From: a virus
Reading direction: 5' to 3' (one strand)
IMG/VR virus record: IMGVR_UViG_3300046004_001366
Span: 1-52,361 of that record
Length of the DNA: 52,361 nucleotides
In this document: one piece after another, positions 7,362 to 25,196 of the stretch
Position numbering within the stretch: position 1 is the first letter of the stretch
How the letters are laid out: every line of letters begins with the position of its first letter
Translations under genes and position numbers: made by a program
Notes under the pieces: generated by a model
Database searches by the model: none
Seen by the model: only the letters and a program-made list of their open reading frames with translations
What the model was told of the DNA's origin: nothing

Positions 7362-10300
7362 ATGGCTCTGCCTTTTGGAATCCCGAACGTCTCTTCTCGC
7401 CCTACCGGAACGCCTGCCCCAAGCCTACCTTTTGGTCCGCCTCCAAGCAAGTCTGACCCAATGAGCGCCACGAATATGGCGGCTCAAGGCGTGAATCCTC
7501 TCTATTACGGGGGAAGCGAAGCTTTGGCAGCAGATCACAACCGGGATGCAGCATGGAACCTCGAACGCGAGAACCATGATCGCGCAGTTGCTCAAGCTGA
7601 CAAGATGGCGAAGGACCGCCAAAGCGAGTTTGATGCCGCCGAAGCCGAGCGCGTGAAAGCTCGCGATGAACAGAACGAGCGCGATGTTGCGCAAGCATCT
7701 CTTGCGGAAGCGACTGCGCCCAAGACTCTCACGGACTCGCAACGTCGAGACGCGGAAGAGACGGCCAAGAAGAAGTCTGATGAAGCCAAGCGTGCCGCAA
7801 TTGGCGGTATGCAGACCAGTTTGGAACCCATCGCCTCCCAAACACAGGGCGGATTCCTTGGATTCGGGGCAGAGCCGACAGACGCAGCCAAGGAGGCAAC
7901 CGCCAAAATTCAGGCGCTCCAGAACCAAGAGGTCTCGGATGCCGACCTTGCCGAATATCGCAAAGCCCATCCTGAAACCTTTGCCGAGTTGGACAGAGTA
8001 CAGGCAACAATCACACAGGACGACGCTGCCCGTGCGGCTCGCAAGCCTGCCGAGGTGGCACTTGCACGCGCAAAGGCCATCAAGGCCGGTCTCTCTCCCG
8101 AAGAAGCGGACGCTCAACTTGCCTCACAGTCGCCACAAAGCGCAGATCCCAAGATTGCCGACATGCAACGTGTGGCAGCGTCAGGGCTGATGGAGCGTGA
8201 GCAAGCGCGTATCGGTGAACTCACGCAGCGCATCCAAGATCGACACAATAAATTGGCCGAGATTGACGCGGAATCGCAAAACATCGAGCAACGCCTCATT
8301 CAGGGCGGAACTGCCGCGCAGATTGGACCACTCACGCAGCGCAGGCATGAACTCATCGCCCAGCGCAAAGCCGAGCAGGTCGCTATTGCCAATGAGAGCG
8401 AAGCGGCCGCAGGCGCTCAACGGGCCATTGAGATTCGTCGCCAGCGCATCCAGGAGGCAGAAGCAATGCAGGGCAAGGGGGTGGATGCCCCAAGCGCTAC
8501 GGGCTACCTTCCAGCCAAAGACCCGGCCAAGGCAACTGAGGAAGTGCGTGCAGCCAAGAAGGCTGATGCAGAGAAAGCGATTGGCGTTCTCAGTGACCGA
8601 TCCAAGCAGCGTGCAGACGCCGCCCGCGCAGCAAGCGAGCAGGTCGAGGCGCAAGTCCGCACCGGTAAGATCACGCCGGAGGTTGGGGCGCAATTACGCG
8701 AGAAGGCCATCGAAAAGTCCATGCAGGACTTTGATGCGCAGTTCGACGAGGACAAGAGCACGCTCGCCGACAGTCTCGATGACTACGCGGCAGGCACCAT
8801 TGATGCGGATACCCTCAACTCCATCTTTCACGCCGCAGGAGCCGCAAAGTCTGGCGTGGAGTCATTTCGTGACAACGCTGACAATCTCAAAAAGAAGGAC
8901 GAGACCTTGGAGGCGCTTCAAAAAGTGGCTTTGGGCGATGACAACGGCAACAGCAATCCTTCTCTCAACGGTGAAGAGATGAGGCTTCTCAGTGAGATTG
9001 CCGGACACGAAAGCGACGCAAACAATCCCCTCAACTGGAAGGCTAAAGCAACGTCTGTGACTACCGACGAATATGGTCGTTCGCATGATGTGTTCTCGGA
9101 GGCTGATTATGAAAAGCTCCGGTCGCAGTCGAAACAAGCCGCGCTCGACGGGAAGAAACAACTCACTGAGCTTCGTGCAGCCAATCGCGCCAAGATGGTC
9201 GCTGAATTGGAGAAGCGCGGCATCACTGACCCCGGTGAACAGGCGCAACTCATTGTTGAGGCTGACCTGAAGGCGGCAAGCAAGGCGCGCCCAGGTATCG
9301 CCGCCAATGTCGCTGCCCGTGGTGGCATTGCTGCAACACTCGCGCAAAAACTGCCGTTCGCCGGGGGTGTTGTCGAGGCGAGCCGTATCCTGCCGTATGC
9401 AGCCACGGCGATTGCCTTGGAAGCCGGGCAGACTCCACCGGTCGAAGACTTGGAAGCGCTGGCCGCGTTTGCAAAGTTCGCGGGCACGGATTCAACTTTC
9501 TGGTCAAAGACGGCAGATGTCGTCTCGGCGCTGCCGGGTTTCGTAATCGAACTGAATACCACGGGTGGCATTGCTACCGCAGTGAAGAAAGTCGGTTTGG
9601 AGGGGATGAAGAAAGCCCTCACGGGTTTGGCATCTGTTCAGGGGCGCAAGCAACTCGCCGCCGCCATCGCACGCGCCAGCGCGGAGAACATTGGCAAACT
9701 CGGCTCCAAGAAGGTGCTGGCAATGCGCCTTGGCTCTGGACTCGCTCAAGAGGCGGTCCGCCTTGCCCCTGCCTCTGCCGGGCGCATCGCTTCCAAGTTC
9801 ACCCAAGACACGGCGCTGAGCGGTGTCAACCTTTCGCCCGTAGAGGGCAAACTCGCCGCCAGCATGAACATGGAGAACCGGCGCGGCTCTGGCGGTCGTC
9901 TTCTTGATGCCGTTGTGGACAGCTACATCGAGAACGTCTCGGAACGTAGCGGCAAATACGTCATGGGTGCCTTGGGCATGATTGGCAAGAAGGTGTTACC
10001 ACAAGCAGTTTCCGGCTTCTTTGCCAAGGCAGGCAATGCCGCTAAAGATGGGATGCTGCGCGCTGCTTTTGTGAAGTCGCTGATGGCGAAGAACCCAGGC
10101 ATTGAGCCGCTCAAGCTGCAACGCTACCTCAAGGGCGCGAACATTGGCGGCACCATCGAGGAAATGATGGAGGAACGAGTCGGAGGCGCAGCCCGTGATG
10201 CGTATGCCGCCATCACGACAGGCCGCGATGACAACAAGGTTCTCGGCTACATCACCAAGCCGACCATGGAAGACTTGCTTGTGGAGTTGGTCTCCTTCTC

Positions 10301-13300
10301 GGTTCCAAGCGGAATCAGCGCCGTGCAGACCAACCGCCACTTCAGCGGATTGGACAAAGCCATCGCAGGCAGCGATGCCGAGAGCACCGAGCGAATCAAT
10401 GACATTGACCTTAACCCGCAGGCGCACGCTGACCGGCTCACAGAGCTTGGCGGAACTCCTTTTGAGGCTTCAGACATCACCCGCGCCACCGATCTTGTCG
10501 GGAGCGTTGCGGGAGCCGATAGCATCCGCTCCTCTGACAAGACGCAAGCGGATTACATGGAGAGATCACGCGCAGCCATTGATGCGGGCGACCTCGACAA
10601 GGCATCCAAGCTCATGCAGATGGCATTGCAGCAGTCGCGCACGCGCTCAAGTCTGGCCGATCAGGAACTTGGACAGGCAGCACTCGCCGCCCAGCAGATC
10701 GAGCAGGCACGCGCAGGAGGCAAAACGGCGGCAGCGCAACTACGCCAACAGGCGCAAGACACTCTGGCCGCAGATCCGAAAGCGAAGAAGCAGGCGGAGA
10801 CCTTGGAAGCTCATGCCGCTGCGCTCGAAACCGTGGCTGACCGTGCGGCAGCAATCGTCAAAATTGCCCGTGGTCGTGGCGATACCCTCACAACCGCTGA
10901 AAAGAATGCTCTTGGCGATGCCGTGGTGAACGAAGGCCAAGGCATGATCATCACTGACGCAGCCCGCGAAGAGTTGGCTCAGATCGCACCCGCCGCAGCC
11001 CGTTACGTCAAGCAGACGGAAACGATGCGCCGAGAACAGCTTTCCCGAGATCAGGCACAAGCAGCAGGAGCCGCCGCACCAGTGAGCACGCCCGCCCCGG
11101 CTCCAACCGCAGCGAATCCACCTCCTGCCGCTTCGCCTGCCCGTGGGACATCCACCAATGCGGGTGGTGCGCCATCGGTTACTGGCGCAGTGACCGCCCA
11201 GGGTGCGGCAACGGCTCCGCCTGCCGGTGCCGCGCCCGCTGGTGGCAAACTGCCAAAAGACCTCGCTGGAGCCAACCCTCGCTACAACCACGGCTCAAAA
11301 GCATTTGAGGTCGAGTTTGAAAACGACATCGACAAGGCCGCATACATTGCCGCCCAAGAGAATCCTAGCAAACGAGACGCTGATTATGTCGCTTGGGCTG
11401 TGCAAGCCAGCGGCATGACTGAGGCGGAAGTTCGCGATCACGGCAAAAAGGTACGCGCCAAGCTCAAAGAGATCGGAGCAAAATCGAACTCAGGGAAGCT
11501 GAAGCTCAAAGACCAGATGCCGCAGGCTACCAATAGCCAGCCTCCGGCTAGCCAGAGTCCGGCTAAACCTGCCGCTGCCCCCGCTCCTGCCGCACAACCC
11601 GCCGCGAAGCCTGCCGTGTGGAAGGGTGTGGGTATCAGTGGCAAAACTGCCGAGATTCCAGCCGACGAAGCCGCAACTCAGGACGAGGCCGAAAAGAAGC
11701 TCATCAAGAAGCTTGGCGAGCCTCTGCGTTCAGGTGGCGTGACATCGCCCACCAAAGCCAAGGGTGCTCCAGCCGCTAAACCAACCGCTTCCGCTCCTGC
11801 CGCCGCCCCCGCCCAAACTCCCGCAGACAAGAAGCGCGACCGCCTCCGCACAGTGGGCGAGCAGATCGACGCCCTTCTTCCTTCCTACCGCGACGCCTTC
11901 ACGGGCATCGTGGAAGAGTCCGGCAAAGGTCGGCGCGCATGGCTCGACCCCAAGACCGGCGCTCTCCACCTGAACCGGCAGCAGTTCGCCGCACAGTCCG
12001 CCGACCTGGACGATGCCGCCCTCGCCGCTGAGATCGAGACAATCATCCGCCATGAGTGGATTCATGCAGGAACCGTTGCCGTGCGCAATGATGCCCAAGC
12101 CGCTGCATTCTGGACAGAACTCGGCAAAAGCAAAGCGGGCAAGGACATCCAAACTGCCGCGCTCCGCGCCTACAATGCACCATATGAGGCCAGAGGTGTC
12201 GTTCCTCCCGCGCTCACTGATGCGCAGTCGGGATACGAAGCCTACCGGATGCTTTATGAACTCGCCCGCGACGGCAAACTCTCCGAGACGACCAACATCC
12301 CCGAATCACTCGCCGCTGACATCCGCTCCTTCCTGCAAGGGCTGGTCGATTGGATGCGCGCACGTCTCGCAAAGTTGCCGAAGAAACTCCGCAGCCAGAT
12401 CGAAGCAGACATTGCCGAGATCGAGGGCGCTCTCAAGAAACTCACTCCTGCCGCTCCTGCCGCGAAGGCAAGCAAGCCCGCGCCGGTCAATGCCGCAGAT
12501 ACGCAATCGCTGACGATTGTTCGACTCAAGGACGGTCGTCTTGTGCATGTCCATGAGAAGGAACTCGCCAAGAATAGCGCACGGCTACGCATGTTCACGC
12601 CCGAGGGTGAACCGATCAAGGGGGCCGCTGGCGTGCTGGAGCGCTCTGACATCGACCTTTCTCCGATTGAGGGAGCCGCAAATAACGCCCCCGATACCGT
12701 AGATGCTGCCGCACACGAAGCCGCGACAAGCCCGAACAACGACAAAGCGCACCCAACGCCTGATGAGATCAAGGCGGGCAACTACGAGAAGGGTCACTTC
12801 ACCCTTGGCGGCATGGACATCTCCATCGAGAACCCGGCTGGAAGTGAACGCAGCGGCATCGACAAGGACGGCAAGAAGTGGACCGTCCCGATGAAGTCCC
12901 ATTACGGCTACATCAAAGGCACCGAAGGCAAGGACGGCGACCATATCGACATCTTCATCGCCGAGGGCACGCCCAAGGATTACGACGGCCCCGTATTCGT
13001 CGTGAACCAGATGCGTCCCGTGACGCTCGTTCAGTCCGACATCCGCACCGGCAAGAAAACGGAAGTGCCAGCAGGCAAGGAGTTCGATGAACACAAGGCT
13101 GTCACCGGAACCGGCATCACCACTGAGGCGGAGGCAAAGGCCGCATATCTCGCCAACTACTCGGAAGGATGGGATGGCGCAGGAAGCATTGTGTCTTTCG
13201 CGAACCTCGCAGCGTTCAAATCGTGGGCGATGGGGAAGAAGCGCGTTGGCGCACTGACGCAGAGCGCGGCAGACAGTCACTCGCGAGCCGCAAGTGCAGA

Positions 13301-16300
13301 AGCAGGAGAGGCAAAGCAAGCACCCCTCCCAGCGGAGCAGATTGCCAAGCTTACCGATGCGAACAAGCAACTCAGCCGGTGGTCGAGCAATAATAACGCC
13401 TCGGCTCGCCACCAGATCGCCATCAACAAGTATGCGAGTGGCGCATGGACATTGCAGGACACGCCTTCACCTGAAAAGACACTTGCCGACATCGAGCAGG
13501 AAACCGCAAAGGCGCGCACGGCGTGGATTGTCACTCACATGGGTTATATCAACCAGAAGAATGACGCGCTAGTGCAGGCATTGGCCGCAGATCCAAAGGT
13601 TGTCGCTATCGCAACCAATGAGAACAATGACGCCATGAACATGCGCGTCTATCTGGCGGACCGCATCAAGGCCCAAATGGTCAAGGATTTGAAGGCTAAT
13701 CTCTCGGGAGATTCCCGCTTTGGATTGTACTACGACTTCACGCAGGAACGCATCAAAAGCGCTGATTGGCTTGACCACATAGCCGAATCTTTGAAAAAGG
13801 CCATCAAGCCAGCGGTATCAAATGATACCAGCGCGCCAACCTTTGAGCGCGGCGACCGCGTGACGTGGACGAGCGGCAAGGAATCACTCTCCGGCACTAT
13901 CCGCAGCGTCTCCAGCGATGGAACGGCATCCGTGGACACCGATCAAATCTCTTTCGCTGGTGGTGTGCCCATTGGCCGCATCGAGACGGTTCAAATGAGC
14001 CGACTGAGTAAGGAGGGGGAAGCAAAGCCCGCGCCGAAACCAAAAGCCGAGCCTGCTCCAGCCCCCGCGCCCAAGGATGCTGCCGACGAAGCTCTCGCGC
14101 AGGCGTTCGAGGGTCTTTTCGCCGCAGACCGGCCTATTGTCGATCCGGTCGTTCAGGCTCTCCGTGTGCTATCGCAAAATGACGAGTTCTTCCGTTTTAG
14201 CATCGTTCCACAAGATGTGAAGTCTCTCACGGAGATTATGCAGCGCGTCGTTCCTGGCTCGACCTATAAAGGCGATGCCACGCGGAACAATGAGCCAGAC
14301 CTGACCGAAGCTTACAGCCGCCAGATGTTCGCCACCAAGAGCGGAGCGCCTTTCTTTGTCTTCCAAGGCTACCACGATGGCGAGAAAACCACATGGATTG
14401 ATGTCAGTGGACTTAAAGAGGGCGGTGGCGGATCGGCCATCTATGCAGCCGTTGGCAACTACGCATACAACAATGGACTCAAATTCATTGGCGACCCTGC
14501 TGGACTCTCGGAGGCAGCGGTCATGCGCAGGACAAGTCACCTTCTTTCGCTGGCGCTTCGCTACGGCACTACAAAGCACATCGCGCCATCCAGGGAGCAA
14601 TTAGACGGCGTGCCAGAAAAAGGTATTGCGCCCGTCCGTTGGGATGGTGATGATACGGCCAAGATTCGATCATTGATCGAGTCCTTCCTCGGCACACTCC
14701 AGAAACGCTATCCTGAAATCCTCAATGCACGCTACGACTTCGACGCTGGTCAGTTCCTCGACTCACAAGGAATGCCTATTCGCTTTGATCGTGCTAAGAA
14801 GCCAGCTATCGAAGCGGGTGACGAGAATTCTGCCGAGATGGGAATTGAGGCGCGAAAAAGCGGAGCGCGAGCGGGTGAGGCAACATTACGTCGAGGTATT
14901 TTCCTCAAGTCCCTTGTATCAGGCGAGGGCCGCGAAAGATCCGAACTTCTGGAGCAACTGGAACTCTGGAATCGTGCATATGTAACCTCGGGAAATCTGG
15001 ACGGCCTTTTCGCCGCAGACCGCCCCGTTGCTGACATCGAGCAAGCCGACCTGCCGAAAGATCGCCGAGCGGCCATGCTCAATGCGGCTGGCGCATTGAT
15101 TGACGCTGAAGTAAAGCGCCCCGATGAACTCGCCGCACGACTTGAGAAACTCGCCCCCGGTGGGCAGTTGCGCAAATACTCGCGCTCGTTCTGGCGCTTG
15201 ATGAGCGGCTTCGACTCCACACTCGCGGAGAATCCCGACTGGAACGCCATCTATGATGCCATTGACAACCCCACTACCGAGAAGGATACTTTAACAGATG
15301 AAACTCAAACCGACATTCGTCCGCAAGATTCGGAGGGGCTACCTCCAGTCGGAGGGTCGGACGGCTCCAACGGACTCGGGATTCCCGAGCCAGATCAAGC
15401 AGGCGCTTCAGGTCGGAGCGCCCAAGGTGGCGTCAATTCTGGAGAAGGAGGGGATTCTCCTCCAGTGGGCGAGTCTGATGGCGGACCAAGTTTGGGAGAT
15501 GGTAAAAAGCCGTCCAAAAGGAATCGAACCCCGCGAGGCGGAAAAGGAAGCTCTGCTGATGCTAATCCCATCGACGGAGGAGCAGCAGGGGCAGTGGATG
15601 AGCCAACACGTAGCCCAGGCCGCGAGAACTACTTCCTAAGCGACCCTGAGTCGATTGTCGGAGGTGGTCAAAAGACGCGCTTCAACAAGAACAAGCTGGC
15701 TCTCGAAACTCTCGAACTCATCCAAGAAGAGGGCCGCGACCCTACTCCCGCAGAGTTGGACATCCTCGCCGCTTATACTGGCTGGGGTTCACTCGCGCAG
15801 GAACTCTTTCAAGGCGGCACCTTCGAGCGCCACGCTGGCCCGCAGGACTGGAAAGATGAATCCATGTGGCTTCGTGAACGTCTCGGCAAAGAGGCGTGGA
15901 TGTCGGCATTCGACTCCATCCTCAATGCTCACTATACCGACCCGCCGACCGTAAAAGCCATGTGGGACATGGTACGTCGCCTTGGCTTCAAAGGTGGCCG
16001 CGCTTTGGAGCCATCCGAGGGTATTGGCAACTTTTGGGGACTCATGCCGAGAGATATGATGGCGCTGAGTATGTTGACCGGCATCGAGATGGACTCCACC
16101 ACGGCAGCGATTGCTAAGATGCTGTATCCACAGGTGAATCACCGCTTGATGCCTTACCAGCAGTCTCAGACATCAGACAACTTCTATGATCTAGTGATTG
16201 GCAACTGGCCGTTCTCCGCCAACGACAAGCCAGCAGATCCACGCTTTGACCACCTCAAGGCGACGGTTCACAATTTCTTCTTTGTGAAAGCCCTTCATCA

Positions 16301-19300
16301 GACACGCCCAGGCGGTCTGGTGATTGGTATCACGTCATCCAAGACGATGGACGGCAAAAGCTCGCTGGTGCGCAAGTATCTGGCTGCGCGTGGTGAACTC
16401 GTCGCCGCCTTCCGTTTGCCAACAGGAGCCTTCGGCAAGTACGCAGGCACCAAGGTTGTCACTGACATCATCATCCTCAAGAAGCGTGAGACTGTCCTAG
16501 AGCGCGATGCTGGGGGCGAGGGATGGATTAACACCGTTCGCGACACGGCCGGGCGCGACTTTGACATCAATGAATACTTCGTTGCCAATCCGCAGAACAT
16601 TCTTGGCGAGTTAGATTTTGGGCACGGCACCACCTTTAACCGTGAGGGCATGATCGTGAATCGGTTGCCGAATTACGAGCAAGTGCTGCCGCGCCTGTTC
16701 GAGCGCCTGCCCGAGAATGTGATGACGCCGTGGAATCCCGTCGGGCATGAGCGAATCATCAACAACACCACCAAAGAGCGCAGGCAGGGAGCCGCAGTAT
16801 TCGCCAATGACGACCTTTATGTCGTGGACGGCGAAAGCCTTGTTCCTTTGCAGGACCGCGCCAAATGGCAGACCAAGACAGGCACGGCGAAGCGTCTTGC
16901 CGAGGGTGTGTCACTCATCGCTATGCGCGACGCCTTCAACGCCGTGCTCGACGCCAACCGGCAAGGGTCGGACGGCGAGACACAGCGGAAAGCATTGCAG
17001 GAGGCTTATGCGTCCTTTGTGAAGGATCACGGCCCGCTTCACAAGTCGTTCATGCTTGGACGCTTCCGCAAGGCGGGCGACCAAAACGCCATTGACCTTC
17101 TGGCGCTTGTCGAGGTCGATGAAACGACCGGCGCGGAAAAGCCGCGCTCACTCATGCTGCGCAACACGATGCGCAGGACGCAACTCGACGCGAAGGGCAG
17201 CATCGCCGACGCCTACGCCTTGCACCGCTCCGAGACGCTCGACTTCGATGCGGCCGCAGTGGCGAAGCTGGCGGGCGACGACACCAGCCCGAACGATGTG
17301 ATCGCCTTCCTCCAAGAGAAGGGACTCGTCTTCAAAATGCCAGATGGCCGGTGGATGCCGAATGAAATCTATCTCGCGGGCAATGTCCGCCGCAAACTGC
17401 GCGAAGCCATCGCCGCCAAAGAGGACGGAGTTGAAGGCATGGACGTTAACATCGACGCACTGACGTCCATCATTCCCGAGGACATCCCGTATCACAAGAT
17501 CACCGTGCAGATGGGGGCGGCGTGGATTCCGACCTCCGACTATGAGCAGTTCATCACTGAACTACTCGGAGGCAATGCCGCCGATGTGCAGGTCGTCAAA
17601 GGCATGAGCGGCTACAATGTCCGAATCGGTGGGCGCACAGCGGACAGCCGCGACGCCCGCCAGACGTGGAACGTAGTGACTGAAGCTGGCCAATCGCTCC
17701 TTCACCCGAGCCGCATGTTCCAAGCCGCGATGAACGGCACCGAGTTAATCATCAAGCGGGAAGTTGAAGACGAGAACGGCAACAAGCGCGAGGAGGTGGA
17801 TGAGCCCGCCACCAGACGCGCTATCGCTATGCGCGACAGCATTCGTGACCGTCTCCAGATGTGGGTTTGGACGGATGAATCCCGCATTGCACGACTGACC
17901 TTGGACTACAACGAGATGAAGAACTCCGTCATCAACCCAGAGTTTGACGGCTCTCATTTACGCCTGCCGGGATTATCACTCACCTTGAGCGACAGCGGCG
18001 ACCCATTCGAGTTTCGTCAGCATCAGGTGAATGCCGTATGGCGTGGCATCCTTCAGAAGCAGGGCGTTTACGCCCATGAGGTCGGCACCGGCAAGACCTT
18101 CACTATGGCAGGCTTAGCAATTGAGGGCCGAAGACTCGGCTCACATCGCAAGCCGATCATCTTCGCTCACAACGCAAACGCCGCGAGCGTCGCCGCTGAC
18201 TTCCGTCTCGCTTACCCTGGCGCGAAGATCCTGTTCGTGGACAATCTTTCACCTTCCACCAAGGAGTTGACGCTTCGGCAGATCGCCACCGATGAATGGG
18301 ACGCCATCATTGTCCCGCACTCACTGGTGGACCGTTTCGGATTGAGGCCGGAAACTATGCGAGCGCTGGCACAACCAGAACTCGACCGCATTGAGTCTGA
18401 GTTCTGGGCAGAACTGGACGAGCTTGGCGTTGATTCCTCATCAATTGATTTGGATGACATGCGCGGCATGGGGCAAATCCTGAACCGTCTCAAAGGTTCA
18501 GCAACGGCCAAGGAACTCGCCAACGCTCGCCGCCGCATCATGACCCGCATCGAAAAGCAGGTCGCGAAATTCTCCGGCCCCGGTGTCGTGTACTTCGAGG
18601 ACATGGGTATTGATGCTGTGATTGTCGATGAGGCTCACGTCTTCAAGAAGATCAGTCTAGCGACGCGCAAGGTGATCAAGGGACTGAACAAAACCGAGTC
18701 AGGTAAAGGATTCCAACTCGGCCTGCTCACCGACTGGTTGAAAACACAGACAGGCGGCAAGGGCGTTCATCTCTTCACCGGCACACCAGTTACGAACACA
18801 CTCAATGAGGTGTTCAACATGATGCGCTTCGCGATGGATAAGGAAATGGGCGAGTCGGGCATCGACAACTTTGACGACTGGTATAACGATTATGCTGACG
18901 GATTCTCCGACACCGAGCCGACATCTGGCGGCACCTATGAAGAAGTTACCCGACTGAGGGGATTCCTCAATGTGCCAGAGCTTGCCCGCTTGGCAGGCCA
19001 AGCCTTTGATGTGGTGCGCGCCGACGAAATGCCAGAGTTCAAGCCCCGCGCTTCGCATGAGGGCATCACGGAAAAACCCATTGGACGACCGCACAAGCAG
19101 GTGCGCCCCATCGTGATTGAGCCGACATCCGTGGCGAAGCGACTCAAGGCGTGGATTCGTCAACGGTTCTTCTATTATCGCGGACTCTCTGGGCGTGAGC
19201 GCATGTTCCTGAAAAAGATGGGCGGAGATCAGCCCGTCGTCATGGATGGCGACGGTAAAGCGGGGGCGCTTGACCCGCGTTTCGTAAGCCCAACAGCCGA

Positions 19301-22300
19301 AGATGACGCAAACTCAAAAGTGAATTATGCGGTGCGTAACATCGTCGAGCACTACAACGAGCACGACCTCGCTACGCAGATGGTATTTGTAGAGCGTGGA
19401 GCAGGCGATTACACCGAGGCTGATGTTGCCGTTCGTGATGCCGAAGGGAAACCGCAATACGACAACGACGGCAACCGCGTCGAGGTCAAGGAGCGCCGGT
19501 TACAGTTCAATCTCCTGCGCGACATGGTTGAAAAGCTGGTCGCTGAAGGCGTGAAGCCGGAAGAGATCGCCGTTTTTCAAAACCTCAAACTGCTACCTCT
19601 GCCAGACGGCAAGGATGATATTCTTTTGAGAGTTCACCGTGTTAATGGGCCGGAAGACAAGGAGGAAGCGGCCAAACTGATGCGTGAGGGTAAAATCCGC
19701 ATCGCTTTTGGTGGCACCGAGACAATGGGCACAGGCGTCAACGCACAGACATGGATGCGCGCCATGCACCATCTGGACGTTCCTTACATGCCTGGAGAAC
19801 TTGAGCAGCGCAATGGACGCGGCTGGAGACAGGGCAATAAGTGGAACACCGTCTTTGAATATCGCTACACCGTTGAGGGTAGCCATGACGCGAAGATGTG
19901 GAGCACTCTGCTAAACAAGGTCCGGTTCATTGAACGGTTCATTGGGATGCTGCAAGGCAAGAACCTAAGTCGCAACTTGGAAGGCGACGGCGCAGATGCC
20001 GCCGACGACGAGGACGGCATGAGCAACGCGGACTTTGAACAGATGTTCTCGACTGCCGCAGGAGACCCGCGCCTTATCTTGCGTCTCTCCCTCGGCAAGA
20101 AGGTTGATCGCATCCAGCAGGCCAAGAACATGCATCTTCAGTTCATGGAGCAGACTCGACGCAAGAACGCCGCTATCGAGAACAATGAGATTCCGAGGTT
20201 GGAAGCTGCTGTTCGGCAGTTTGAGAAAGGCGACGAGCTTTATCAGCAGGTTGCTGGAAAACCATTCTCGGCAACTCTTCGCGGGGAAACTTATACAGAG
20301 CGCAAAGACTTCGATGAGGCTATGACACGCCTTCCGCGCTACTTGGATCGCAAAGAAATCGGCACCTACGGACCTTTCCGCATTTACATCCAACCAACAA
20401 TGGGCGGCGGTTATTACGAGCTATCAGGGCCGGATAACTTCAACGCGTCATTCATGAATCCAAGCATGGCTTCGCTTGAGGGCACGCTACGCGCCATGAA
20501 GAAAAAGGCAGAAGGCAAGGCCGAAGAAATTGCAACCCTTCAGAAGTCGCTCGTTCGAGCCAAGGATGAGATGTCGCGCCCATTCCCCAAGGAGGAGGAA
20601 CTCACCAAGGCTCAAAACGCGCTGGCAGTCATCGAGTCGGAGATTCGCATCAGCCCCTACCCGGCCCCCGGCTGGCTTCGAGTCGGAGCGCCCCAAGGCT
20701 CTCTCATGTACTTGAAGGAGAAGGGCAAATTGAACGCCTACGACGTGGAAGCGCATCGGTGGGATGAAAACAACTATTGGGCAATGATCAGCCGAGACGG
20801 CGAATTGTTCCCCATCCCCTACAATGAAATGCTGGACGCCACCGGGGCGCGCATCTTTGAAGATCACGACCACACGGCACCGCCCGAGGCTCCCCCAACA
20901 ACGGCAGACGGCCAACAAGGCTCATTCCCCGGTGTTGAAGTCGGACTCGATGCCGAGTTCGGTTATCGAACATTGATCGACCGAGTGACCGGCGAGCGCA
21001 GCATCGAGCACAAGTTCTACACGCGATACGCGACCGTCGCCGATGGCTTCTATAATGCCGCCGCAGGTGGCGGGCGACTGCCTGCCAATGCCGCCGACTA
21101 CCTTCCCAAGACTGTTGAAGAGCTTCAACGCCTGCTCGTCAGATCGGGCGCGGCGAGCGGTCTGTTCAATGGCAAAGATTGGAAGTTCCTCGCTCCCGGC
21201 GAAAGCGATGAGCTTTATAAGCCCACCGAGACATGGCGAGTATTTGCCCCTGGCGGATGGATGGTTGGCGAAGGAGCGTCCCCTCGCGAGGCATTCTTTG
21301 AGGCACGCAACCATGACCAGAACGGAGACACCTTCATGGACGCCATTCGTTATGCCGTGATGCAGTTGCCGGAATCTGAGGATGACATCAATGAACTCCT
21401 CAGAATCGCGTCCCAGCTACCCAGCGGTATTGAGTTCCAGATGATCGACCCTGGATTAGACGACCCCTTCGAGAGCGAAAACGATGATACCAACGTCTTC
21501 CGCCTCACAAGCGACGGCTACGGCATCTTAGGTAGTGGCGAAAGACGCGCATTCGCCCTTCGCGATGCGCTGACGCATGAGCGATTCGGACGCACATTCA
21601 AGGAGGCTCTCGCCATCTACAACGCGCCCCCAGCGAAAAACCCGCTGGAGCGACTTGCCGACGAATCACGCCTACTCGATACCGACCGCCGTAGCCGTGG
21701 GCTTTTCCGCCGTCGTGCCAAATTGCGCAAACTCCTCGATGTGATTGAGCGCCGACGCGCCGAGGTGGAAAGCAACGAGGACAGATACCGCAACCGTGAC
21801 GCGCAAGACGAGACGCTCCAAAGCCTCATTGCCCGCGAGAAGGCGCTGACCGAGAAACTCGCCGAGGTGGAGTCGTTCATCATTTACCGTGAGCGCACCG
21901 AGGAGCCTTTGCCTCTCGCTGCTGCGGACCGGCCAATGATGGACGCGGAGGAGTTCGCTGATGCGCTTGACGCCTTGAACTCCGACATGCCGAGCGAATC
22001 TGACCTGGACGACCTTCGCCAGCGCGCCGGTCTCGATTGGGGCCGCGAATACACAGACAGCGAGCTTGCCGGACTGTCTGGCGGTATGCGCGCAGGGATG
22101 CGGACCGCATACGATGACAAGCTTGACCGGCAGACGCACGAAGCTTGGAACGAAAAGGCTCACAAGCTCATTGATGAAGATCCTACCCGGGTGCTTGCCG
22201 ACTTGGTGAGCACGGCGACAGATCGCGGCTCCATCATCAACCCTGTTCAGGTCAAGGCATCGCAGATTCTTCTTCCGCAACTCATGCGCGAGGCAATCGC

Positions 22301-25196
22301 CAACCGTGATGCCAAATCCTTCCGCATGGCCGAAACTCTGACGTGGGCATACGACGCGGCAGGGACGGAAACAGCGCGAGGACTCGCCGCCCGCTGGCAA
22401 CCGCACCTTTCCCCCGAGGAGAGGCACCGCGAAGTCTTGGCGAAGATCATCTTCACGCCGGGCGCAAAGGACCGCGAGGACATCAAGCGCGCCCCGACAG
22501 ACCGCGCCCAGGCTGAGCGCATTGCTTCGCTGGAGAAAGAAATCGAGCGTGTGCGCTCTGAGGCGACCGAACGCGAGAAGGACATGCTACGCCAAGTGGC
22601 AGGCATGACGGAATCTCTACGCGAGGCACGCCGCAAGGATGCCGTTGCCCTGCGCGCCGAAGCCAAGAAGGAACTCGATGCCCTGCGCGCCGAGTTGAAG
22701 CGCGTGCAGGCACAGAAGACGCAGCTTCAGATGCTCCACGACATCAACACGGAGCGACTCGCCAAGATCGAGAAAGCCTTTGAGGAAATGGGCATCACGT
22801 ACCATGACATTTTCGTTTCCCGTGAGATTTCGATTGGTCTCAAGACCTCCAGCGTGGTGAAGAATGCCATGCAGCCATTCACGCCGAAGGAGCGCCAAGC
22901 TCTCCAGATGATGATGGATGGACGCAGCGACCGGCAGATTGCCAATAAAACGGGCATCAGTCGCAACAGCATGGCGGGAATTGAAGCGCGTTTTGACAAA
23001 GTGCTCGATGCCAAGCTCGAAGCGCTGGTCCGTCGCGGGTTTGACATCTCGAAGGCTGATGGCCTCGATGTGGACAAGCTCATCGACAAGGCCGGTAACA
23101 TCCTCGCCGCTGCCGACCGCCCGGTTGCGACGCTGACCGCCGAGGAGGTTAAAAAGCGCGTGGGTGAACTGCGTGCCATCATCAAGCCATCTCCTGACGC
23201 TCGAAACTCCGGCGCTCTCCGCCGTCTGAAGGGTGAAGAGTCCAAGGAGGCGCCGTACGGCTTCGACATCAGCCGTCCAGAGCACGCAGCCATGCTCATG
23301 CGCGCCATTCACCGCATGGACAGCAACCCAATGGACATGGTGTATGAATACTGGATCAACGGGCTTCTCTCCGGCCCTGCGACTCACACGGCCAACATTG
23401 CTGGCAACCTTGGCAGCGCTGGTCTGGAATACCTCATTCAGCGACCGATTGAGGCAATCACCAATGCCGTTCTCTTCCAAAACGTCGCAGGCGCAAGCCT
23501 TGGCGAATACCAGAGCATGACCAAGTATGCCGCCCGCGCAGCAAGCACCGCTTGGCGCTTCGCTCGCATTGCCTGGAACACCGAGGTTTCCCTCTTTGAT
23601 TCACAATGGCTCAACAAGCCGCTCGTCGTTTCCGGCAACAGCGGAGACAAGGGGCAGTTGGAGCGGTTTGCTATCCCTGGCACTACCGGCCGCGTCGTTC
23701 GGACTCCGACACGCTTCCTGCAATTCGCGGACGAATGGGCCAAGCATTTCTTCGGCATGATCGAGGCGGCAGCACAAGCGCACCGGTTGGTAAAGGCGGA
23801 CGGTCTAAAGCCCGGCAGCGCCGAGTTTGACGACCGGGTGGAACAACTCGTCGGCATTCCCGGCTCTCCTGCTTGGCTCGCTGCCGTCGATAAGGCGCAC
23901 CGGTTGACCTTCACGAACGATCTTCCTGCGCCATTGGCGAAAGCTCAAGAGATGCTTCACTCCCGCGCTAAAACGCCTTGGGGAGCCGTCGCTAAAACGC
24001 TTCTGCGCTTCGTGTTCCCATTCATTCGCACGCCATACAACATCTTTGCTACTGGTCTGCGTAAGACGCCTCTCGGATCTGCGCGTATGATTGGCAAAGG
24101 ATTGGCCGCATGGCACGGGAAACAGCCATTCTTCGACAGCTACCCACAGGCGGCACTCGCGACAGACATCGCCGAACAGCTTCTCGGCTGGTCTGCGGCA
24201 ATGATACTCTTCGCCATCGGCGAGGGAGACCCTGACGACGAAAAGAAGACGATCCTCATCACCGGCTCTCGCTCACGCAGCGACGACAGAGGCGAGGACC
24301 AACTTCTTGACCGCCTGCGCGGTGGCGAGACAACCATCCTCATCAAAGGCAAACCTGTTTTCAATTATGGACGCTACGAGCCTTTTGCGACGATCATCTC
24401 GACGCTGGTCGATGCTTCTCGCGACATGAAGAAGATCAAAGGCGGGCAGAAACCAAGCAAGGCAATAGGTGAAGCTGTGCGAGGTGTGCTCGATCAAGCG
24501 CGAACCAAGACGTTCCTGCAAGGTCTTGATGGCCTCATGCAGCTTATTGAAGGCCGCACTTCCACCACGATGCCTGAGCAACTGCGCAAGTTTATCGTGA
24601 CCGGCATTGTGCCGAACCTTGTCCGCCAGCCAATCCGTAACGCTGATGAGTTTGCCAGAGACACACGCAATGCGCCTTGGTATTACCATGCCATCCCTCT
24701 TGGTGGTCTCGCTGAACCGCTGTATGACCTTTACGGCCGACCAGTGGAGAAGATGGGCAATCCAGTCACGCGGGCGTTTATCAATACCCCTGTGCAGCCA
24801 AGCACTCCGACCAATCCGGCTGACCGTGCATTGCGCGTCTGGAACGACCGGAATCCCCTGCGTGGAGATGGCGACGGTATGGGATACTTCCCGACGAACG
24901 TCGATAAGAGCATGATGCGCTTCAAGGATGCCTCCAAAAAATGGCAGGACATGACACCACGCGAAGCCGCAGAACTCCGCCGCAAAGGTGGACAAATCAT
25001 GGATGCGGAAGCGCGGGCGGCAATCACCAACCCGACAAACCCGACTCAGGACGACATCGACAGGCTCAAGAAGGCGCGCAACAAGGCGTTCTCGAAGGCT
25101 AAAAGTGAGATGTTCTCGGGCGGTGTTCGTCCTGTGCTGCCAGCACGGCGACCTCCATCACTGAGCGAAATCTTCGGGCAAGTGCTGCGCAGGTAG
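7362..25196 (+). CDS. Giant polyvalent protein (5944 aa): peptidase-, pyrophosphatase-, methylase- and helicase-like domains
   Basis: One uninterrupted frame. The ATG is preceded by ACATACCTCCTATG. Layout by residue: 33-46 PMSATNMAAQGVNP, shared with the protein at 42586-43200; about 40-640 coiled coils; about 646-870 helical, Gly/Ala-rich; Pro/Ala linkers near 1235-1296 and 1386-1490; HEWIH at 1564-1568 with possible third ligand Glu1626 (zinc-peptidase-like); about 1800-1965 inorganic-pyrophosphatase-like (HYGYIKGTEGKDGDHIDIF); 2883 EPSEGIGNF and 2948 NWPF (adenine methylase-like); 3573-3579 EVGTGKT, 3756 DEAH, 3806 TGTP and 4149 QRNGRGWR (SF2 helicase); about 5173-5215 an HTH resembling LuxR type; 5255-5944 a conserved hydrophobic C-terminal region. 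LFAADRP or LAAADRP occurs at 2252, 2549, 4852 and 5248. Such proteins are known in phages and conjugative elements and are thought to enter the host with the DNA, protecting or establishing it. Activity and processing here are inference. Confidence 0.9.
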   Translation: MALPFGIPNVSSRPTGTPAPSLPFGPPPSKSDPMSATNMAAQGVNPLYYGGSEALAADHNRDAAWNLERENHDRAVAQADKMAKDRQSEFDAAEAERVKARDEQNERDVAQASLAEATAPKTLTDSQRRDAEETAKKKSDEAKRAAIGGMQTSLEPIASQTQGGFLGFGAEPTDAAKEATAKIQALQNQEVSDADLAEYRKAHPETFAELDRVQATITQDDAARAARKPAEVALARAKAIKAGLSPEEADAQLASQSPQSADPKIADMQRVAASGLMEREQARIGELTQRIQDRHNKLAEIDAESQNIEQRLIQGGTAAQIGPLTQRRHELIAQRKAEQVAIANESEAAAGAQRAIEIRRQRIQEAEAMQGKGVDAPSATGYLPAKDPAKATEEVRAAKKADAEKAIGVLSDRSKQRADAARAASEQVEAQVRTGKITPEVGAQLREKAIEKSMQDFDAQFDEDKSTLADSLDDYAAGTIDADTLNSIFHAAGAAKSGVESFRDNADNLKKKDETLEALQKVALGDDNGNSNPSLNGEEMRLLSEIAGHESDANNPLNWKAKATSVTTDEYGRSHDVFSEADYEKLRSQSKQAALDGKKQLTELRAANRAKMVAELEKRGITDPGEQAQLIVEADLKAASKARPGIAANVAARGGIAATLAQKLPFAGGVVEASRILPYAATAIALEAGQTPPVEDLEALAAFAKFAGTDSTFWSKTADVVSALPGFVIELNTTGGIATAVKKVGLEGMKKALTGLASVQGRKQLAAAIARASAENIGKLGSKKVLAMRLGSGLAQEAVRLAPASAGRIASKFTQDTALSGVNLSPVEGKLAASMNMENRRGSGGRLLDAVVDSYIENVSERSGKYVMGALGMIGKKVLPQAVSGFFAKAGNAAKDGMLRAAFVKSLMAKNPGIEPLKLQRYLKGANIGGTIEEMMEERVGGAARDAYAAITTGRDDNKVLGYITKPTMEDLLVELVSFSVPSGISAVQTNRHFSGLDKAIAGSDAESTERINDIDLNPQAHADRLTELGGTPFEASDITRATDLVGSVAGADSIRSSDKTQADYMERSRAAIDAGDLDKASKLMQMALQQSRTRSSLADQELGQAALAAQQIEQARAGGKTAAAQLRQQAQDTLAADPKAKKQAETLEAHAAALETVADRAAAIVKIARGRGDTLTTAEKNALGDAVVNEGQGMIITDAAREELAQIAPAAARYVKQTETMRREQLSRDQAQAAGAAAPVSTPAPAPTAANPPPAASPARGTSTNAGGAPSVTGAVTAQGAATAPPAGAAPAGGKLPKDLAGANPRYNHGSKAFEVEFENDIDKAAYIAAQENPSKRDADYVAWAVQASGMTEAEVRDHGKKVRAKLKEIGAKSNSGKLKLKDQMPQATNSQPPASQSPAKPAAAPAPAAQPAAKPAVWKGVGISGKTAEIPADEAATQDEAEKKLIKKLGEPLRSGGVTSPTKAKGAPAAKPTASAPAAAPAQTPADKKRDRLRTVGEQIDALLPSYRDAFTGIVEESGKGRRAWLDPKTGALHLNRQQFAAQSADLDDAALAAEIETIIRHEWIHAGTVAVRNDAQAAAFWTELGKSKAGKDIQTAALRAYNAPYEARGVVPPALTDAQSGYEAYRMLYELARDGKLSETTNIPESLAADIRSFLQGLVDWMRARLAKLPKKLRSQIEADIAEIEGALKKLTPAAPAAKASKPAPVNAADTQSLTIVRLKDGRLVHVHEKELAKNSARLRMFTPEGEPIKGAAGVLERSDIDLSPIEGAANNAPDTVDAAAHEAATSPNNDKAHPTPDEIKAGNYEKGHFTLGGMDISIENPAGSERSGIDKDGKKWTVPMKSHYGYIKGTEGKDGDHIDIFIAEGTPKDYDGPVFVVNQMRPVTLVQSDIRTGKKTEVPAGKEFDEHKAVTGTGITTEAEAKAAYLANYSEGWDGAGSIVSFANLAAFKSWAMGKKRVGALTQSAADSHSRAASAEAGEAKQAPLPAEQIAKLTDANKQLSRWSSNNNASARHQIAINKYASGAWTLQDTPSPEKTLADIEQETAKARTAWIVTHMGYINQKNDALVQALAADPKVVAIATNENNDAMNMRVYLADRIKAQMVKDLKANLSGDSRFGLYYDFTQERIKSADWLDHIAESLKKAIKPAVSNDTSAPTFERGDRVTWTSGKESLSGTIRSVSSDGTASVDTDQISFAGGVPIGRIETVQMSRLSKEGEAKPAPKPKAEPAPAPAPKDAADEALAQAFEGLFAADRPIVDPVVQALRVLSQNDEFFRFSIVPQDVKSLTEIMQRVVPGSTYKGDATRNNEPDLTEAYSRQMFATKSGAPFFVFQGYHDGEKTTWIDVSGLKEGGGGSAIYAAVGNYAYNNGLKFIGDPAGLSEAAVMRRTSHLLSLALRYGTTKHIAPSREQLDGVPEKGIAPVRWDGDDTAKIRSLIESFLGTLQKRYPEILNARYDFDAGQFLDSQGMPIRFDRAKKPAIEAGDENSAEMGIEARKSGARAGEATLRRGIFLKSLVSGEGRERSELLEQLELWNRAYVTSGNLDGLFAADRPVADIEQADLPKDRRAAMLNAAGALIDAEVKRPDELAARLEKLAPGGQLRKYSRSFWRLMSGFDSTLAENPDWNAIYDAIDNPTTEKDTLTDETQTDIRPQDSEGLPPVGGSDGSNGLGIPEPDQAGASGRSAQGGVNSGEGGDSPPVGESDGGPSLGDGKKPSKRNRTPRGGKGSSADANPIDGGAAGAVDEPTRSPGRENYFLSDPESIVGGGQKTRFNKNKLALETLELIQEEGRDPTPAELDILAAYTGWGSLAQELFQGGTFERHAGPQDWKDESMWLRERLGKEAWMSAFDSILNAHYTDPPTVKAMWDMVRRLGFKGGRALEPSEGIGNFWGLMPRDMMALSMLTGIEMDSTTAAIAKMLYPQVNHRLMPYQQSQTSDNFYDLVIGNWPFSANDKPADPRFDHLKATVHNFFFVKALHQTRPGGLVIGITSSKTMDGKSSLVRKYLAARGELVAAFRLPTGAFGKYAGTKVVTDIIILKKRETVLERDAGGEGWINTVRDTAGRDFDINEYFVANPQNILGELDFGHGTTFNREGMIVNRLPNYEQVLPRLFERLPENVMTPWNPVGHERIINNTTKERRQGAAVFANDDLYVVDGESLVPLQDRAKWQTKTGTAKRLAEGVSLIAMRDAFNAVLDANRQGSDGETQRKALQEAYASFVKDHGPLHKSFMLGRFRKAGDQNAIDLLALVEVDETTGAEKPRSLMLRNTMRRTQLDAKGSIADAYALHRSETLDFDAAAVAKLAGDDTSPNDVIAFLQEKGLVFKMPDGRWMPNEIYLAGNVRRKLREAIAAKEDGVEGMDVNIDALTSIIPEDIPYHKITVQMGAAWIPTSDYEQFITELLGGNAADVQVVKGMSGYNVRIGGRTADSRDARQTWNVVTEAGQSLLHPSRMFQAAMNGTELIIKREVEDENGNKREEVDEPATRRAIAMRDSIRDRLQMWVWTDESRIARLTLDYNEMKNSVINPEFDGSHLRLPGLSLTLSDSGDPFEFRQHQVNAVWRGILQKQGVYAHEVGTGKTFTMAGLAIEGRRLGSHRKPIIFAHNANAASVAADFRLAYPGAKILFVDNLSPSTKELTLRQIATDEWDAIIVPHSLVDRFGLRPETMRALAQPELDRIESEFWAELDELGVDSSSIDLDDMRGMGQILNRLKGSATAKELANARRRIMTRIEKQVAKFSGPGVVYFEDMGIDAVIVDEAHVFKKISLATRKVIKGLNKTESGKGFQLGLLTDWLKTQTGGKGVHLFTGTPVTNTLNEVFNMMRFAMDKEMGESGIDNFDDWYNDYADGFSDTEPTSGGTYEEVTRLRGFLNVPELARLAGQAFDVVRADEMPEFKPRASHEGITEKPIGRPHKQVRPIVIEPTSVAKRLKAWIRQRFFYYRGLSGRERMFLKKMGGDQPVVMDGDGKAGALDPRFVSPTAEDDANSKVNYAVRNIVEHYNEHDLATQMVFVERGAGDYTEADVAVRDAEGKPQYDNDGNRVEVKERRLQFNLLRDMVEKLVAEGVKPEEIAVFQNLKLLPLPDGKDDILLRVHRVNGPEDKEEAAKLMREGKIRIAFGGTETMGTGVNAQTWMRAMHHLDVPYMPGELEQRNGRGWRQGNKWNTVFEYRYTVEGSHDAKMWSTLLNKVRFIERFIGMLQGKNLSRNLEGDGADAADDEDGMSNADFEQMFSTAAGDPRLILRLSLGKKVDRIQQAKNMHLQFMEQTRRKNAAIENNEIPRLEAAVRQFEKGDELYQQVAGKPFSATLRGETYTERKDFDEAMTRLPRYLDRKEIGTYGPFRIYIQPTMGGGYYELSGPDNFNASFMNPSMASLEGTLRAMKKKAEGKAEEIATLQKSLVRAKDEMSRPFPKEEELTKAQNALAVIESEIRISPYPAPGWLRVGAPQGSLMYLKEKGKLNAYDVEAHRWDENNYWAMISRDGELFPIPYNEMLDATGARIFEDHDHTAPPEAPPTTADGQQGSFPGVEVGLDAEFGYRTLIDRVTGERSIEHKFYTRYATVADGFYNAAAGGGRLPANAADYLPKTVEELQRLLVRSGAASGLFNGKDWKFLAPGESDELYKPTETWRVFAPGGWMVGEGASPREAFFEARNHDQNGDTFMDAIRYAVMQLPESEDDINELLRIASQLPSGIEFQMIDPGLDDPFESENDDTNVFRLTSDGYGILGSGERRAFALRDALTHERFGRTFKEALAIYNAPPAKNPLERLADESRLLDTDRRSRGLFRRRAKLRKLLDVIERRRAEVESNEDRYRNRDAQDETLQSLIAREKALTEKLAEVESFIIYRERTEEPLPLAAADRPMMDAEEFADALDALNSDMPSESDLDDLRQRAGLDWGREYTDSELAGLSGGMRAGMRTAYDDKLDRQTHEAWNEKAHKLIDEDPTRVLADLVSTATDRGSIINPVQVKASQILLPQLMREAIANRDAKSFRMAETLTWAYDAAGTETARGLAARWQPHLSPEERHREVLAKIIFTPGAKDREDIKRAPTDRAQAERIASLEKEIERVRSEATEREKDMLRQVAGMTESLREARRKDAVALRAEAKKELDALRAELKRVQAQKTQLQMLHDINTERLAKIEKAFEEMGITYHDIFVSREISIGLKTSSVVKNAMQPFTPKERQALQMMMDGRSDRQIANKTGISRNSMAGIEARFDKVLDAKLEALVRRGFDISKADGLDVDKLIDKAGNILAAADRPVATLTAEEVKKRVGELRAIIKPSPDARNSGALRRLKGEESKEAPYGFDISRPEHAAMLMRAIHRMDSNPMDMVYEYWINGLLSGPATHTANIAGNLGSAGLEYLIQRPIEAITNAVLFQNVAGASLGEYQSMTKYAARAASTAWRFARIAWNTEVSLFDSQWLNKPLVVSGNSGDKGQLERFAIPGTTGRVVRTPTRFLQFADEWAKHFFGMIEAAAQAHRLVKADGLKPGSAEFDDRVEQLVGIPGSPAWLAAVDKAHRLTFTNDLPAPLAKAQEMLHSRAKTPWGAVAKTLLRFVFPFIRTPYNIFATGLRKTPLGSARMIGKGLAAWHGKQPFFDSYPQAALATDIAEQLLGWSAAMILFAIGEGDPDDEKKTILITGSRSRSDDRGEDQLLDRLRGGETTILIKGKPVFNYGRYEPFATIISTLVDASRDMKKIKGGQKPSKAIGEAVRGVLDQARTKTFLQGLDGLMQLIEGRTSTTMPEQLRKFIVTGIVPNLVRQPIRNADEFARDTRNAPWYYHAIPLGGLAEPLYDLYGRPVEKMGNPVTRAFINTPVQPSTPTNPADRALRVWNDRNPLRGDGDGMGYFPTNVDKSMMRFKDASKKWQDMTPREAAELRRKGGQIMDAEARAAITNPTNPTQDDIDRLKKARNKAFSKAKSEMFSGGVRPVLPARRPPSLSEIFGQVLRR
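15298..15639 (+). CDS. Nested overlapping gene inside the giant gene (113 aa)
   Basis: An ATG-started frame, +1 relative to the giant gene, lying wholly within it. AAGGA lies 11 bases upstream of the ATG. The product looks like a normal folded protein: a basic N-terminus (MKLKPTFVRKIRRGYLQ), then helices with regular hydrophobic spacing (IKQALQVGAPKVASILEKEG, later WASLMADQVWEMVKS and EKEALLMLIPS). In the same stretch the giant protein is low-complexity Gly/Ser/Asp/Pro. By hand count, third-position GC is about 70 percent in this frame and about 44 percent in the giant frame, the reverse of what a shadow frame would show. Its own start and stop argue against a frameshifted domain. No family was recognised. 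Confidence 0.5.
   Translation: MKLKPTFVRKIRRGYLQSEGRTAPTDSGFPSQIKQALQVGAPKVASILEKEGILLQWASLMADQVWEMVKSRPKGIEPREAEKEALLMLIPSTEEQQGQWMSQHVAQAARTTS

Follow-up and report, generated by a model that had tools for sequence, protein, structure and literature searches.

A probable overprinted gene in the linker of DarB-like giant phage genes

The gene considered here lies inside a gene for one of the giant DarB-like polyvalent proteins described by Iyer et al. (2017, PMC5512222). Co-ejection and activity against type I restriction have been described for the Dar proteins (PMC12810830), and the giant is present in the virion of JC1, a relative (PMC9144972). In phage P1, a gene beside darB encodes Ulx, a small protein that is listed as helping DarB to localize in the head (PMC9024508). 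The published account of the giants covers their domains, and a text search of that paper returned nothing on a nested gene. Complete nesting itself has a precedent in the embedded Rz/Rz1 spanin genes of phages, in which a complete gene lies within another and which have been reported for JC1-like phages (PMC9144972). However, Rz/Rz1 differ in their proteins and function; in the family described below, the outer frame codes for an unconstrained linker within a giant protein and free-standing relatives exist. A further point of comparison is the small transposon-encoded protein TnpV (PF14198). For TnpV of Tn4451, a role in excision has been postulated because of its homology to lambda Xis (PMC3158075). 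Both overlapping genes in general and the TnpV family are known, but no description of a conserved pairing of this kind with DarB-like giants was found, nor was a nested gene in such giants mentioned in the literature searched.

The window, i.e., the whole stretch of viral DNA analysed here (52,361 nucleotides; positions 1 to 52,361 of IMG/VR record IMGVR_UViG_3300046004_001366), harbors one such giant gene. Its features, all on the + strand, are the following.

7362–25196, + strand: giant DarB-like polyvalent protein gene, 5944 amino acids, housing the nested gene (phrog_10089, DarB-like antirestriction, E=7e-139)
14154–14924, + strand: LPD37 domain of the giant (large polyvalent protein associated domain 37; Pfam PF18853, E=1.7e-69), 5′ of the nested gene
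15282–15286, + strand: AAGGA, putative ribosome-binding site of the nested gene, read from the sequence, 11 nt before its ATG, a rather long spacing
15292–15294, + strand: TAA, read from the sequence, in frame and two codons ahead of the nested ATG, cutting the nested frame off from anything upstream
15298–15639, + strand: nested gene of 113 codons and a stop codon, read in the +1 frame with respect to the giant, member of a family that is probably TnpV-related (open reading frame, composition, homology, place and phase, selection in the family)
15300–15638, + strand: giant-frame stretch overlapping the nested gene, a low-complexity Gly/Ser/Asp/Pro linker by composition, GC3 0.44 (dN/dS 1.74 in the equivalent stretch of relatives)
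15633–17000, + strand: methylase region of the giant, directly 3′ of the nested gene (PHROGs DNA methyltransferase and DarB-like matches)

The giant's protein presumably protects injected DNA against restriction. By its PHROGs matches to DarB-like proteins and DNA methyltransferases, it has the arrangement that marks a DarB-like giant, an adenine-methylase region followed by an SNF2-type helicase in one polypeptide; by Pfam, the SNF2 match is weak (E=8e-4, below the cut-off). The protein aligns over ~1,900 residues to the USP_18/USP_25 giants, and an Eco57I methylase occupies the part of the giant of gut scaffold L026 that is equivalent to the methylase region. An HEWIHAG stretch at approximately residues 1550–1570, seen by eye, resembles the zincin-like metallopeptidase motif (HExxH), and an InPase domain lies at ~12765–13022 (Pfam PF18823). 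Both are usual company in polyvalent proteins.

The nested open reading frame (ORF) begins with ATG at 15298, ends with TAA at 15637–15639 and specifies 113 amino acids within the giant ORF (7362–25196), its codons starting at giant codon position 2. The coordinates, start and stop given in the original prediction are thus confirmed on the sequence, as is the AAGGA that it had placed 11 nt upstream. The TAA at 15292–15294 means that the product needs its own start and is not a long frameshift extension of the giant. The GC content at codon positions 1/2/3 is 0.61/0.44/0.70 in the nested frame, 0.70/0.62/0.44 in the giant frame over the same bases and 0.64/0.46/0.65 over the whole giant, in agreement with the earlier hand counts of about 70% and about 44% at third positions. 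This reversal in GC3 is the sole signal offered by the single sequence and may partly reflect the Gly/Ser/Asp composition. The length of the ORF in the window alone is not beyond chance. When the giant is redrawn with synonymous codons, the +1 frame is open across the 113 codons in 38% of the redraws, and longer +1 ORFs, up to 243 codons, arise in the giant by chance. On their own, the length and the start of the ORF lend weaker support to a gene than had been claimed. Other long +1 ORFs inside the giant lie at 7666–8190, 8197–8982, 10195–10929 and 12013–12513, in Ala/Glu/Pro-rich stretches, and the redraws yield lengths like these by chance.

The protein of the window, being a member of a divergent branch, has no match elsewhere by tblastn or by an exact-peptide scan. 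With the methylase stretch (15633–17000) as the query, many DarB-like phage giants are found; the same query has no match in bacterial genomes. In the relatives, a +1 ORF of ~100–140 codons lies at the same site, upstream of the methylase and in a low-complexity Gly/Ser/Arg/Asp linker, and the nested protein sequence is clearly conserved in most of them (MNLNNWIxQARxHWKExxPxxYxxLKxxGxLxxALxxAAExTxxExxxLExxGxxxxEAWEMVRExYLFPPxE). A scan of viral contigs with 8 closer nested proteins yielded 66 loci, while an alignment of 11 divergent members was too weak for scanning. Place and +1 phase are the same in all 84 loci with a detected homologue, comprising the window, the phage records and the loci from the scan. 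For a second set, loci were picked solely by the methylase domain of the giant, and 79 of these were usable, i.e., had enough upstream sequence. Beside the methylase domain, 79/79 have an open +1 frame of at least 85 codons, compared with 6/79 for the +2 frame. Antisense frames at these loci are also often open; therefore, openness alone is not the argument for the nested gene. With a profile built from other loci, the nested frame is recognised at E<0.01 in 56 of 65 members of the subclade to which the window belongs, and most of the remaining nine are the nearest relatives of the window, on its divergent branch. In the overlap, GC3 is 0.82 in the nested frame versus 0.39 in the giant frame, with the nested value higher in 81/81 loci.

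Completely nested genes escape standard annotation, and this one is a separate feature in none of the annotated phage records examined. In those records, the nested match falls under the feature of the giant or, in phage PBC5, under that of its N-terminal half. The giants of phages 8P, BKO1-TP3 and vB_PalP_Y7 harbor +1 ORFs at the same place (L011 7615–7927, L024 5597–5927 and L025 4453–4759) whose products are not recognised by the family profiles; these could represent either highly divergent members or another nested gene. A +1 ORF is also found there in the giants of the GC-rich loci L164–L169 and L171–L174, with a core that looks similar by eye. One viral contig (L051, 734–8048) is the only locus with a short giant frame around the nested gene. 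Its giant is in scrambled pieces, some of them on the opposite strand, as in a prophage that has decayed or been rearranged, and the nested ORF is intact.

Substitutions were compared in 17 non-overlapping, independent close pairs of relatives. At giant codon positions 1/2/3, there are 216/78/72 substitutions in the overlap versus 343/202/1553 downstream (odds ratio 13.6, P ~1e-81). The nested frame has a dN/dS of 0.164, whereas the giant frame has 1.74 over the same bases and 0.106 downstream. These are simple Nei–Gojobori counts without an overlap model, and because they ignore the overlap, the value of 1.74 reflects frozen synonymous sites and not positive selection. The subclade of the window exhibits the same shift (407/268/242 in the overlap versus 697/499/2087 downstream), as does L115–L096, a pair near the window (53/23/24 versus 92/55/273). 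As the window has no close relative, the selection figures are those of the family and not of this sequence. In the family, the nested frame is under purifying selection and the giant frame is relaxed. The comparative evidence for the nested gene is far beyond chance. The original prediction, in which the linker accommodates a real, selected second gene by overprinting, is supported by the conserved place, phase and sequence and by the substitutions in both frames, the comparison that it had proposed.

Two readings would dispense with a second gene. In one, a low-complexity Gly/Ser/Asp-rich linker simply leaves a long, functionless +1 frame open. The redraws of the window, the longer chance ORFs in the giant and the frequently open antisense frames are in its favour. 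However, it is already contradicted for the family by the conserved protein sequence, phase and place in 84/84 loci, by a nested dN/dS of 0.16 with depressed synonymous change in the giant frame and by the existence of free-standing homologues, and we regard it as hardly credible. In the other, the nested frame is a fossil of a frame flip or is reached by programmed frameshifting, and so represents a former or alternative part of the giant protein rather than a separate gene. Sinorhizobium phage PBC5 fits this reading, as the upstream half of its giant and the nested frame together form a single ORF (orf33). Against it, both frames are open in virtually all loci, stops lie 1–5 codons ahead of the ATG in many (e.g., the window, SopranoGao, LASTA, Pavtok and PEp14), Shine–Dalgarno (SD) motifs precede most nested starts and the free-standing homologues have their own start; it is very improbable. 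With nested starts chosen by profile position and ATG, SD-like motifs are found ahead of 79/84 in one set and 44/66 in the other, compared with 9.6% of out-of-frame ATGs in the same giants. On these grounds, the region 15298–15639 is very probably a real, separately translated gene, overprinted in the +1 frame in the linker upstream of the methylase domain of a DarB-like giant. In PBC5, the giant is split by a frameshift, either real or a sequencing error (orf33, L013 850–7440). The PHROGs “endolysin” family phrog_938 matches the nested protein at its C-terminal end, probably as a result of the fusion in orf33.

That the window itself belongs to the family follows from profile searches, another check suggested at the outset, in which its product was recognised by profiles built without it. 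A profile lacking both the window and most of its subclade detects the nested frame at E=0.005, the best window match among 7,837 open segments, and one that includes the subclade and leaves out the window detects it at E=1.3e-10. By BLASTP, the product is 36% identical to that of L119 over 103 residues, and the window groups with L119, L101, L096 and L112 in the tree (support 0.91). AlphaFold predicts a compact, all-helical protein of six helices (pLDDT 84, pTM 0.74); in a member of the PEp14 type (L092), the N-terminal two-thirds are predicted with confidence to be helical. Fold searches with these models in the PDB and BFVD gave no credible match, and a sequence search of the PDB matched only a designed helical repeat protein. 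An acidic DNA mimic was considered and ruled out on charge, which is +4 for the window protein, with family means of approximately −4.5 and −6.

The nested family is spread over phages and mobile elements of several phyla, and it is likely continuous with TnpV, which would then be the wider family. The likeness extends to size, helical character, a core motif around W/Y..P..Y..L...G.L and +1 nesting in gut giants. In the human-gut scaffolds L026, L027 and L178, SNF2-methylase giants contain unmistakable TnpV genes (E down to 3.9e-39) that are nested in the same +1 phase. Among the phage members, several match Pfam TnpV weakly (29/49 at E<0.05), and L091 passes the curated cut-off of PF14198 (30.9 bits versus 27). 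For most members from proteobacterial phages, the link is weak; the profile–profile probability between the nested family and TnpV is low, the window protein matches nothing in Pfam, at the TnpV cut-off included, or in PHROGs, and the TnpV protein of L026 as a query finds no relatives in viral contigs. The annotated TnpV genes examined differ in being free-standing, beside recombinase or mobilisation genes, and free-standing TnpV occurs on plasmids and transposons.

Homologues of the nested protein in bacterial genomes are mostly nested as well, with several free-standing (L180, L182, L184, L196, L199, L201 and L209). The free-standing ones sit among the nested ones in the tree, which suggests that the gene has moved between the two states, probably more than once. 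As its family also exists free-standing, the nested frame is probably no newcomer. The free-standing relatives, together with codon use that is normal in the nested frame and a linker that lacks constraint, make it more likely that the low-complexity linker is the overprinted frame and that the nested frame is the older one. A free-standing homologue from Variovorax sp. WS11 (L201, 2–5319) is 76% identical to the nested phage copy of L088 and divergently adjoins a type I hsdM–hsdS–hsdR locus. Other free-standing copies also lie near defence genes, with hsdM nearby in L208, a BrxH/DrmD-like helicase in L209 and an McrB-like AAA gene in L196. These neighbours fit an antirestriction setting, as a few cases without a control for defence islands.

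We infer that an accessory protein made separately from the giant is the best reading of the locus. Translation of the nested gene would start at its own ATG, with its own ribosome-binding site, on the mRNA of the giant, giving a separate small helical protein that would act as a dedicated partner of the adjacent dyad of methylase and SNF2 helicase. Such a partner could assist in loading the giant into virions (or transfer channels) or in localising it there, or could restrain the dyad before delivery, and nesting would tie its supply to that of the giant. This role, analogous to that of Ulx in DarB localisation in P1, is one that we favour tentatively, at somewhat less than even confidence, because of the fixed position beside the methylase, the precedent of Ulx, the presence of the giant in the JC1 virion and the defence-gene neighbours of some copies. 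The free-standing copies speak against it, as they indicate a protein without a constant need of the giant in cis. Like the nested protein, Ulx is a small protein encoded at darB; in contrast to it, Ulx is encoded by a separate gene just downstream of darB. Three profiles of the nested family do not match Ulx at E≤100, and no nested homologue was found in P1 darB or Ulx. Without sequence similarity, the likeness is one of arrangement, which offers a hypothesis rather than membership.

The gene may be real and still serve otherwise. It could encode an independent counter-defence effector, such as an antirestriction protein, that merely shares the transcript, as suggested by the free-standing homologues beside type I restriction–modification genes (L201, and hsdM nearby in L208), the BrxH/DrmD-like helicase and the McrB-like gene. 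However, the cases are few and defence islands are uncontrolled for, the nested copies hold one fixed place beside the methylase, and the protein is not strongly acidic like known DNA mimics; we consider this rather unlikely. A DNA-binding regulator or an excision-type protein, for which the TnpV matches of L026, L027, L178 and L091 and the published postulate from lambda Xis homology (PMC3158075) can be cited, appears more doubtful, as the nested gene lies inside the giant gene and not beside an integrase and the AlphaFold models match no DNA-binding fold. In its broadest form, the partner reading would hold that an ancient, unannotated gene is overprinted at one spot and in one phase in the DarB/SNF2-methylase giants that phages and mobile elements from several bacterial phyla carry, as the obligatory small partner of a widespread counter-restriction machine, in a family that includes the orphan TnpV; we put this forward as a possibility short of a probable conclusion.

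Many phages and mobile elements carry this antirestriction system, to which the nested gene adds a likely component; the family of the orphan TnpV also gains a setting that can be tested. Long-lived overprinting is, moreover, seen here with unusual clarity in a natural case: the inner protein is constrained, the outer frame is a free linker, and the direction of overprinting can be worked out with the help of the free-standing relatives.

In Streptococcus phage phi-SsuZKB4_rum, the giant has no nested +1 ORF upstream of the methylase. Just past the 3′ end of its SNF2 gene (L023, 10154–10532), there are two TnpV-like fragments in different frames, which look as if they were a broken TnpV gene. 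Resistance elements of S. suis that carry TnpV have been reported to insert inside snf2 (PMC9815147).
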